DNA of 64,000 bases, taken from positions 1-64,000 of the forward strand of contig CAJFOS010000017.1 of assembly GCA_904397865.1 (NCBI GenBank). The letters are read 5' to 3'. The DNA comes from Candidatus Allochristensenella caecavium. Its GTDB lineage: Bacteria; Bacillota; Clostridia; Christensenellales; QAND01. A program made the translations under genes and the position numbers. Below the pieces are notes generated by a model that searched no databases, was not told the origin of the DNA, and saw nothing but the letters and a program-made list of their open reading frames with translations. The stretch's first letter is position 1; every line of letters begins with the position of its first letter. Positions 16,673-50,679 of this stretch are shown here, piece by piece.

Positions 16673-17194
16673 ATGGGTTTTTCCATTCACGATGTGGTGG
16701 TGTATGGAACGAATGGAACGTGCGAAATTGTGGACATCTGCGAAAAATCATTTGGTGGTGTGCGCCAGGATTATTATATTCTGCGGCCGGTGTATGATGC
16801 CAAGTCCACCGTATTTGTGCCTGTGGGCAACCCAGCGCTTTGCTCACGCATGAAGCCGCTTTTGCAGAGGGAAGAGGTCGATGCGTTGATTGACGCCTTG
16901 CCGGAAGAGGAATCCGTCTGGATTGAGGATGAAAAACTGCGGCGTGAAAAATACCGCGCCATTTTAGAATGCGGGAACCGTGAAGAACTGGTGAAATTGA
17001 TTCGTACGTTGTACCTGCATCAGCAAAAACAGGTGCGCCAGGGCAAAAAACTACATCTGGCCGACCAGCGTGTTTTTCACAATGCACAGAAAATGTTGCA
17101 TGATGAACTGGCATTTGTGCTGCATATTGCCCCGGAAGAAGTGGGCGCGTTTATTGAAAAACGGCTGGAAGACCATGAACGTACGGCCCAATAA
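16673..17194 (+). CDS. CarD-family transcriptional regulator
   Basis: 173 residues. N-terminal CarD/TRCF RNA-polymerase-interacting domain (MGFSIHDVVVYGTNGTCEIVDICE...YYILRPVYD) followed by a helical C-terminal domain with basic residues (RQGKKLHLADQRVFHNAQKMLHDEL) that contacts promoter DNA in known CarD proteins. It modulates RNA polymerase open-complex stability rather than binding a specific operator. Start: ATG after AAAGGGG; a longer upstream frame is poor family sequence. Single gene with its own terminator. Confidence 0.92.
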   Translation: MGFSIHDVVVYGTNGTCEIVDICEKSFGGVRQDYYILRPVYDAKSTVFVPVGNPALCSRMKPLLQREEVDALIDALPEEESVWIEDEKLRREKYRAILECGNREELVKLIRTLYLHQQKQVRQGKKLHLADQRVFHNAQKMLHDELAFVLHIAPEEVGAFIEKRLEDHERTAQ

Positions 17195-17202
17195 GAGAAA
17201 AC

Positions 17203-17232
17203 GACGGCGGAAGAGCCGCCGTTTTCTGTTTA
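17203..17232 (+). terminator. carD terminator
   Basis: Core stem ACGGCGG/CCGCCGT with a five-base loop followed by TTTTCTGTTT. Confidence 0.8.
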
Positions 17233-17260: not shown

Positions 17261-17289
17261 TTGTGTAACAGGCATATTTGTGTTATGGT
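17261..17289 (+). promoter_or_regulatory. Promoter of candidate ncRNA
   Basis: -35 TTGTGT (17261-17266), 17-base spacer, -10 TATGGT (17284-17289). No coding gene starts within the next 350 bases. Confidence 0.65.
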
Positions 17290-17295
17290 AAAAAT

Positions 17296-17541
17296 AAGTA
17301 AACAACAGCATGATGAAAAGGGATGTACGTTGGCATAAAAACGGGATACTAAATGGGCAGCGTAGCGTTCCTGAAGATATGAAACCCCAAGGTGGATGGA
17401 AACACGGTTGCTGCACATGCCCCTGTGGTGCGGCGCGCGTGATTGGTTTCGGCATTTGTTGTGGAAAGGCGTCCCAGGGGCAAGGGGCGGCTACCACACT
17501 CCCCCAAAGCAGAGCAGTCTCCCGTTACTGCTCTGCTTTTT
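17296..17541 (+). ncRNA. Candidate orphan structured RNA
   Basis: A roughly 245-base unit with promoter at its 5' end and a strong intrinsic terminator at its 3' end (13-bp stem 17506-17518/17527-17539 plus T run), and no convincing ORF. Nested pairings can be drawn: GTAGC 17362-17366 with GCTAC 17490-17494; CCCC 17385-17388 with GGGG 17484-17487; GCCCCTG 17419-17425 with CAGGGGC 17475-17481. It does not show RNase P, SRP or tmRNA signatures. A 6S-like RNA, or an attenuating leader for the downstream DUF2804 gene, are alternatives. Confidence 0.5.
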
Positions 17542-17647
17542 ATATGCCTATATGCGGAGGAAAAAACAACGCGCTGCGCCGTCGACAAACCGGTGCGGCT
17601 GTGCTACATTCAAAGAAAGAAGGACGCAGCAAAAGGAGGGGCGCCGG

Positions 17648-18679
17648 ATGCAGCATGAAATCACCAAACATAAGCCCTTGCTCAATGCGGATGGTTCGCT
17701 CAGTGAACCTGGGTATGCCAAAGGCCCGTTGCTGGCGTATGACCGCAGCGCGATTCGCGCCAGTGCGCTGCGCATCAAGGAATGGGACTATTATTTGGTG
17801 GCAAACGACCGTTTTGCTTTGGCTTTGACCATTGCGGATAACGGCTATATGGGGCTGGACAGCATTTCGCTGTTGCAATTTGAACGCCCATTTCAACACA
17901 CCAAAAGCCCTATGCGCCTGTTGCCGCTTGGGAGAACGGGCCTGCCGCCCAGCAGTGAAAAGGGCGACGTCAGCGTGCGCGGAAAAGGTTATGCGCTTGG
18001 CTTTGCGCATATGGGAACAACACGGCGCTTGACTGCGCGCATGGATGATTTTTACCAGGGCAAATTCATTGAAGCGGATATCACGCTGTATGACCACGCA
18101 GGGGATTCGATGGTCATTGCCACTCCATTTGACGGCCATCCGCACGCCTTTTATTACAACCAGAAAATCAACTGTCTGCCCGCGGAAGGAACGGTGCGCT
18201 TCGATGGGCGCGTCCTCCGTTTTGACCCGGCGGATTCCTTTGCCGTGCTGGATTGGGGGCGCGGTGTATGGACATACCGGAATACCTGGTATTGGGGCAG
18301 TGCCTCTGGGCTGTTGGAAGGCGAACCGTTCGGGTTCAATATTGGCTATGGATTTGGCGACACCAGCGCAGCGAGCGAAAACATGCTGTTTTACCGGCAC
18401 CGTGCGCACAAGCTTTCGCAGGTCACCTTTCACATTCCGCAAAAAGATGGCCAGGATGATTTTTTATCCCCCTGGCATTTTGACAGTGATGATGGCCGGT
18501 TTATTATGGATTTTCAACCCATCTTGGACCGCGCGGCATATACCAGTGCGCTGCTCATTGCCAGCGACCAGCATCAGGTGTTTGGCCGGTTTACCGGCAA
18601 GGCTGTGTTGGATGATGGCACGGTGCTGCACGTTCGGGATTTTTTGGGCTTTGCAGAGAAGGTAGCAAATCGATGGTAA
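17648..18679 (+). CDS. DUF2804 family protein
   Basis: 343 residues. Matches the DUF2804 pattern: an N-terminal LLNADGSLSEPGYAKGPLLAYDR, an internal WDYYLVAND, and a C-terminal DWGRGVWTYRNTWYWGSASG with GFNIGYGFGDTSAASEN. The family is a predicted beta-rich protein, distantly like AttH/lipocalin-type hydrolases, with no fixed function. Start: ATG after AAAGGAGGGGCGCCGG. Its last seven bases overlap the kinase gene, so the two are co-translated. Confidence 0.88.
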   Translation: MQHEITKHKPLLNADGSLSEPGYAKGPLLAYDRSAIRASALRIKEWDYYLVANDRFALALTIADNGYMGLDSISLLQFERPFQHTKSPMRLLPLGRTGLPPSSEKGDVSVRGKGYALGFAHMGTTRRLTARMDDFYQGKFIEADITLYDHAGDSMVIATPFDGHPHAFYYNQKINCLPAEGTVRFDGRVLRFDPADSFAVLDWGRGVWTYRNTWYWGSASGLLEGEPFGFNIGYGFGDTSAASENMLFYRHRAHKLSQVTFHIPQKDGQDDFLSPWHFDSDDGRFIMDFQPILDRAAYTSALLIASDQHQVFGRFTGKAVLDDGTVLHVRDFLGFAEKVANRW

Positions 18680-44403: not shown

Positions 44404-44435
44404 AAAAAAGCCCCGGTTTTCCGGGGCTTTTTTTG
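44404..44435 (+). terminator. Glycolytic operon terminator
   Basis: Stem AAAAAAGCCCCGG/CCGGGGCTTTTTT with four-base loop. Confidence 0.95.
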
Positions 44436-44498
44436 GATGAACGCCGCCGCCGGTCCCTTGCCAGGGGCGGTGGAAGCCCTTATTTATCCGTATAAAAG

Positions 44499-44528
44499 AA
44501 CCGCCGTTGCTTTACAACGGCGGTTTTT
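44499..44528 (-). terminator. Terminator of the small coiled-coil gene
   Basis: Stem AACCGCCGTTG/CAACGGCGGTT; the minus-strand tail is less T-rich and the plus-strand tail has seven Ts, so it may work both ways. Confidence 0.7.
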
Positions 44529-44741
44529 TTAACTTTCCTTGGTCAGCGCTTCCAGCATATCCATCTCTTCGAGCAAAATCATGCGCTGTCTTCGGCAATT
44601 GTCTACAATCTGCAAGACCAGGGAAAACTGGTCTTCCGTGCATTCCTGCTTGAGGATGCGTAAATACTGCTGAATTTCATTTTCCAGTCGTTCTTCTTCC
44701 GTGTGCACGATTTGCAGATGCGGCGCAAAATTTTGTTTCAT
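44529..44741 (-). CDS. Small helical protein
   Basis: About 70 residues, predicted as a helical hairpin (TEEERLENEIQQYLRILKQE...VLQIVDNCRRQRMILLEEMDML). ATG at 44741 follows AAAGGA by five bases; an upstream in-frame TTG or ATG would lengthen it by up to 24 residues. No known family; spacing from neighbours gives no operon. Confidence 0.6.
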   Translation of the reverse strand: MKQNFAPHLQIVHTEEERLENEIQQYLRILKQECTEDQFSLVLQIVDNCRRQRMILLEEMDMLEALTKES

Positions 44742-45098
44742 CATATTCCTTTCTGGATTGTATTCCCCATCGAACAATCCATCCCTCATTTTCTTCAACC
44801 TATCACACAACAAGTACCAAAGTCAACAAACAGGACAACATTCATCCCCCCGAAAGATGACGAATTTTCACGAATTAAAAAGAAGAAAGGCGGATGAATG
44901 ACAAAGACGGAAAAGTAAAAAAATTGTTTTCTTCCTCGTGATGATATTTGATGGAATAAACTTCGATTGACGCGTGCATCATTGTACAACAAGCTGACGT
45001 TTATTTCCGTATCGTATCGGGAACCGTTCTATTGGCTGCGGGGTTTGCACAGAGATGATTTCTACCGCCGATGGATTGACCGGTTGCACCTGTTGCGG
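44742..45098. other. Intergenic stretch without a supported gene
   Basis: About 360 bases of mixed composition between the small helical gene and the small membrane-protein gene. No ORF with a ribosome site or conserved RNA could be supported. Confidence 0.45.
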
Positions 45099-45104
45099 TA
45101 TGAT
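45076..45104 (+). promoter_or_regulatory. Promoter of the small membrane-protein gene
   Basis: -35 TTGACC, 17-base spacer, -10 TATGAT, about 30 bases before the start codon. Confidence 0.75.
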
Positions 45105-45134
45105 ACAGGAAAGTCGCAGAAAGGAGAATAAAGC

Positions 45135-45383
45135 ATGCAGGTACCCTTGATTCGTTTGCTCTATGAGGGGCTGTGCCTGGCCTTTGGCGGACTGGCGCTC
45201 TGTACGCTTTTACAAATTTTTACATTTTCAGCAGCTGCGCCGGTGCTGGTAGGGCTGGCAGGGCTGTTGCAGGGGCTAATGGCCGTGGATTTTATCCAAC
45301 AACGACGCCATTGGCATGCCATCTTGCCCGCATTGACGGCGGTCCTTTGTTTTATCATCGTTCTAACACGGTTTGGGGTTTAG
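45135..45383 (+). CDS. Small membrane protein
   Basis: 82 residues with two to three hydrophobic helices (about 5-25, 30-50 and 58-78) and short charged ends. ATG after GAAAGGAGAATAAAGC. No family recognised. Convergent with the XRE gene. Confidence 0.6.
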   Translation: MQVPLIRLLYEGLCLAFGGLALCTLLQIFTFSAAAPVLVGLAGLLQGLMAVDFIQQRRHWHAILPALTAVLCFIIVLTRFGV

Positions 45384-45397
45384 AAGAAAGGCAAAAT

Positions 45398-45427
45398 AAA
45401 ACGCCGCTGCCACGGCGTTTTATTTTG
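45398..45427. terminator. Bidirectional terminator
   Basis: Stem AAAACGCCG/CGGCGTTTT with a six-base loop between convergent genes. Confidence 0.85.
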
Positions 45428-50328: not shown

Positions 50329-50679
50329 GGGGGTGTAACGGTTTCGACGGGGATTGCCATGGCCATGGTAAGCGAGCCGCAGTGGCCGGAACTGCGATAA
50401 AAGCCGGCAAAACAATAAACGCGAAACAAGATAACTTCGCACTCGCTGCGTAAGCAGTGACGTCCTGCCCGCTTCACCTACCGAGCGGGGTCAGGGCGAC
50501 AATGAGGTAGGGAACCGGCGCCGGTAAGCTTTGCCCGGTGGCCGTTTTGATGAAGCTACTAACCGCAGTATCGAGCAGATGAGAGCCTGCGTGAGGGAAT
50601 GTCAAACCATCTGCTGCGCTCGGAGAAAACCATGGCTGAGGGTCTTCGGACAGGGGTTCGACCCCCCTCACCTCCACCA
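50329..50679 (+). ncRNA. ssrA: tmRNA
   Basis: 351 bases. 5' GGGGGTG pairs with 3' CACCTCC, and the T-arm GGGTTCGACCCC and encoded CCA-like 3' end (TCCACCA) complete the tRNA-like part. The tag reading frame (50421-50453) gives AKQDNFALAA then stop, the standard degradation signal ending. It works with SmpB and RNase R, whose genes lie just upstream. Confidence 0.96.

Follow-up and report, generated by a model that had tools for sequence, protein, structure and literature searches.

A candidate lineage-restricted regulatory RNA gene between CarD-family and DUF2804 genes in an uncultured Clostridia lineage

The small regulatory RNAs (sRNAs) LhrC of Listeria monocytogenes (PMC4132741) and RNAIII of Staphylococcus aureus (PMC3861533) mask Shine-Dalgarno sites, and accessible UCCC motifs are a possible general signature of such sRNAs in Gram-positive bacteria (PMC3861533). 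Here, we analyzed a 64-kb window (the whole stretch of DNA examined, part of a 118.9-kb contig in a draft genome of 1.6 Mb) in which a gap of 453 bases separates a CarD-family gene (CarD_TRCF_RID; ends at 17194) from a DUF2804 gene (starts at 17648), both on the + strand. We suggest, with a probability of roughly 0.5, that positions 17296–17541 of this gap are a separate gene whose product is a trans-acting regulatory RNA restricted to this lineage. A previous sequence-only reading had proposed an orphan transcript with its own start and stop. That is a fair reading of the promoter, the terminator, the CarD terminator upstream, and the DUF2804 promoter downstream, but its argument from nested helices is at chance level. 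The features of the locus are as follows.

17203–17228, + strand: terminator-like hairpin directly 3' of the CarD-family gene, setting it apart from the candidate; 8-bp stem and T-rich tail
17261–17289, + strand: promoter-like site TTGTGT-17-TATGGT with extended -10 TGT; 7 of 12 consensus matches, transcript start inferred at ~17296
17296–17541, + strand: candidate noncoding RNA of ~246 nt; promoter and terminator on either side, no family match, no homologue
17319–17372, + strand: predicted 5' hairpin, a 14-bp G-U-rich helix with one bulge and pair probabilities mostly 0.95–1.0; contains GTAGC
17406–17495, + strand: alternative long rod hairpin with GCCCCTG/CAGGGGC; stability near the minimum free energy (MFE), ensemble probability ~0.14
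17499–17505, + strand: CUCCCCC motif in the unpaired linker 5' of the terminator; predicted unpaired probability 0.81–0.94
17506–17541, + strand: intrinsic terminator with perfect 13-bp stem, 8-nt loop, and short U tract
17519–17526, + strand: terminator loop CUCCCGUU with a second CUCCC motif at its start; predicted unpaired probability 0.96–1.0
17582–17610, + strand: promoter-like site of DUF2804 itself, TCGACA-17-TACATT with TG, 3' of the terminator

Start and end signals

The promoter that had been claimed is present as letters, with TTGTGT at 17261–17266, a 17-nt spacer, TATGGT at 17284–17289, and TGT immediately 5' of the latter. It is modest, being weak by consensus and aided by the extended TG -10. 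When this AT-rich stretch of 77 nt was shuffled, 7% of the shuffles had an equal or better promoter with a TGn, and the site is absent from the list produced by a consensus tool. Therefore, the promoter is plausible but not proven.

The terminator is real and is the sole claimed element above chance. Its perfect stem was confirmed, with AAAGCAGAGCAGT (17506–17518) pairing with ACTGCTCTGCTTT (17527–17539), and is followed by TT and then ATAT. In a stability scan in which only 3.7% of + strand windows passed z -2.8, the 60-nt window at 17481 reached z -6.85 relative to shuffles, far outside the shuffled distribution. The interval delimited by the two signals, previously given as about 245 bases, is ~246 nt. 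As a separate observation, a region of ~1 kb without a long ORF in the same window (44404–45427) has strong, near-symmetric hairpins at 44404, 44499, and 45392 that resemble terminators whichever strand is read; its Rfam matches are all sub-threshold.

The stem of the CarD terminator is just 8 bp and its T run is interrupted, consistent with a possible, though more doubtful, explanation in which the locus is just a spacer or a 3' tail. On this view, transcripts that pass the CarD terminator, or that arise pervasively, would stop at a back-up terminator at 17506, and the 250 bases in between would be functionless. The chance-level fold and nested helices and the lack of conservation across order or class, both described below, also favor this explanation; a TGn extended -10 site at the right place, two accessible CUCCC motifs, and a rise in G+C, to 0.53–0.58 over the candidate, count against it. 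The same genome also encodes another, distant paralogue of the CarD family with 27% identity (L039 1501–1962; G000 contig C6 13359–13820).

On the same strand, ~107 nt separate the terminator from DUF2804 downstream, an arrangement that would also suit a transcription attenuator or riboswitch leader of a DUF2804-kinase operon in which the terminator is the off state. We consider this very unlikely. The promoter-like site of DUF2804 follows the terminator, no Rfam leader was matched, and no antiterminator pairing is obvious by eye. Relatives of the DUF2804 protein are of Clostridia/Oscillospiraceae-type gut MAGs, with identities of at most 67%. Across 15 orthologue upstream regions that were read, either another gene abuts DUF2804 or a short region has a promoter adjoining the gene, and such a leader is in none of them. 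Likewise, a covariance model with the candidate as its only input sequence found nothing at 79 CarD and DUF2804 loci. The conserved read-through leader of DUF2804 that the sequence-only reading had set against its own proposal was thus not found.

Predicted fold and CUCCC motifs

The three nested complementary segments that had been put forward are present and nested (GTAGC 17362/GCTAC 17490, CCCC 17385/GGGG 17484, and GCCCCTG 17419/CAGGGGC 17475), but they fail as structural evidence. A nested triple of 5-, 4-, and 7-bp helices was recovered in 53.8% of dinucleotide shuffles. In the predicted ensemble, pairing probability is 0.00 for GTAGC/GCTAC and CCCC/GGGG and 0.14 for GCCCCTG/CAGGGGC, the last as part of the longer rod, and forcing all three helices costs ~17 kcal/mol relative to the MFE. 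We therefore reject the nested-helix architecture as chance-level and thermodynamically disfavored. The stability of the whole RNA is not unusual relative to shuffles (MFE z -1.31). The 5' hairpin has a local z of -2.9 for an interval picked after the fact, and the middle of the predicted fold is poorly determined. It is highly improbable that the candidate is the founding member of an undescribed class of structured RNAs in a poorly sampled family of uncultured Clostridia, whose 5' helix would be conserved and whose function would differ from simple Shine-Dalgarno pairing.

Two accessible CUCCC motifs, which the sequence-only reading had missed, are the one non-random feature left that hints at function. 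Of the shuffles, 0.3% have at least two CUCCC motifs, as do 0.8% of the stretches of 246 nt in the window. Of the ~20 hairpin-plus-T sites that the window has on the + strand, the candidate's terminator is the only one with CUCCC in its loop. An accessible (C)UCCC in a loop or single strand is a trait of UCCC-type sRNAs that block Shine-Dalgarno sites, and is predicted at both 17499 and 17519. Because the motif was spotted after the fact, we treat it as a lead. Any C-rich stretch pairs easily with Shine-Dalgarno sites, and in a duplex scan of the genes in the window the predicted targets were not distinctive.

As a working model, we favor an sRNA that acts in trans by masking Shine-Dalgarno sites, with its expression, targets, and repression all inferred. 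The extended -10 promoter would start an RNA of ~246 nt that ends at the strong intrinsic terminator present in the sequence. This RNA is predicted to fold into the 5' hairpin, a loose middle, the unpaired CUCCCCC linker, and the terminator hairpin with loop CUCCCGUU. Going by the motif, the two exposed CUCCC patches may anneal to Shine-Dalgarno sequences of the GGGAG type in target mRNAs and keep ribosomes from binding, in the manner of LhrC, RNAIII, and RsaE.

We count in favor of an sRNA gene the terminator well above chance, the TGn extended -10, and the insulation provided by the CarD terminator upstream and the independent DUF2804 promoter downstream, as well as the finding of neither a conserved protein nor a known RNA at the candidate and the placement of both CUCCC motifs at sites predicted to be unpaired. 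We count against it the absence of a homologue in any genome searched, a fold stability at the level of shuffles, a promoter that is weak by consensus, and CUCCC motifs seen post hoc whose targets among window genes are not distinctive.

Homologues and coding potential

Searches with blastn recovered only the candidate's own locus from 100 relatives and 391 genomes of the class. The same was true of 396 genomes of the order, except for one spurious match of ~30 nt (G349), which we attribute to chance since it is within coding-looking sequence (VPEDM) and does not extend. A DNA search of phages, plasmids, and viral contigs found only an identity of 19–20 nt, located in a coding frame that ends ...VVPEDMKPKKI and is small-heat-shock-like by eye. 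We rejected an Hsp20 remnant, as the genome has its own Hsp20 on contig C7 and the candidate has no family match and no domain-sized room. In 150 relatives, the single-sequence covariance model recovered only the candidate above chance level, the best of its other hits having E 0.0085 per genome in 151 genomes. The closest comparison genomes are two of the same family (G001 and G002), with none of the same genus, and DUF2804 is absent from both. The same-family genomes therefore offer no orthologous position for comparison, and for an sRNA that evolves fast, missing homologues argue only weakly against function.

The claim that no ORF with a ribosome site occurs was supported: the open frames have neither a ribosome site nor a family, and those on the + strand, from 17310 and 17396, are without a spaced Shine-Dalgarno and cross the terminator. 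The open frame of 84 codons at 17396–17647 spans the terminator and leads in frame into the DUF2804 start; because homologues begin at the downstream ATG, it looks accidental. The frame from 17310 is open to 17828, through the terminator and into DUF2804. Over 17310–17540 it reads CPCG...CCG...SRYC, with a faint likeness to the N terminus of YchJ (E 0.019). We rejected this YchJ/SEC-C likeness, as it has no Pfam or NCBIfam backing and is partly on the terminator repeat. The open frame, the YchJ likeness, and a pair of short DNA matches to other genomes, each of which reads VPEDM in this frame, would nonetheless favor a protein-gene remnant or a small protein that has escaped recognition. We judge this reading very unlikely, given the missing Shine-Dalgarno and the run across the terminator into DUF2804, a codon score of -0.03 versus a coding median of 0.31, and the lack of a Pfam (including SEC-C), PHROG, or NCBIfam family (best NCBIfam E 0.72). 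Matches by tblastn in the 396 genomes of the order were chance-like only, many with stops.

Comparison with described RNAs

The Rfam scan that had been proposed as a check matched no known family, LhrC-type included, at E up to 10; the sole match is due to chance and is on the CarD terminator. The genome's tmRNA is at window position 50329, its RNase P RNA on contig C16, its SRP RNA on contig C13, and its only 6S RNA match on contig C2. The candidate is thus none of these, as had been supposed for the first three. 6S RNA (RF00013) is likewise a noncoding RNA with a gene of its own and is roughly comparable in size (its model has 187 positions), but the candidate is without a 6S match and we rejected that identity.

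If it is an sRNA gene, the candidate is an ordinary kind of object and leaves knowledge of sRNA mechanism unchanged. It would add an sRNA that acts by base pairing to an uncultured lineage of Clostridia, for which one literature search found almost no sRNA work, and would be a further case of a terminator loop carrying the seed. Like S. aureus RNAIII and the Rsa sRNAs, it has accessible UCCC motifs for which pairing with translation starts is predicted (PMC3861533), although no sequence relationship to them was detected. Loop A of LhrC holds a third CUCCC copy, and LhrC is multicopy (PMC4132741), whereas the candidate occurs once in its genome. Nevertheless, the candidate resembles LhrC in having CUCCC both in a single-stranded stretch and in the terminator loop (PMC4132741), through which it may likewise mask Shine-Dalgarno sites.
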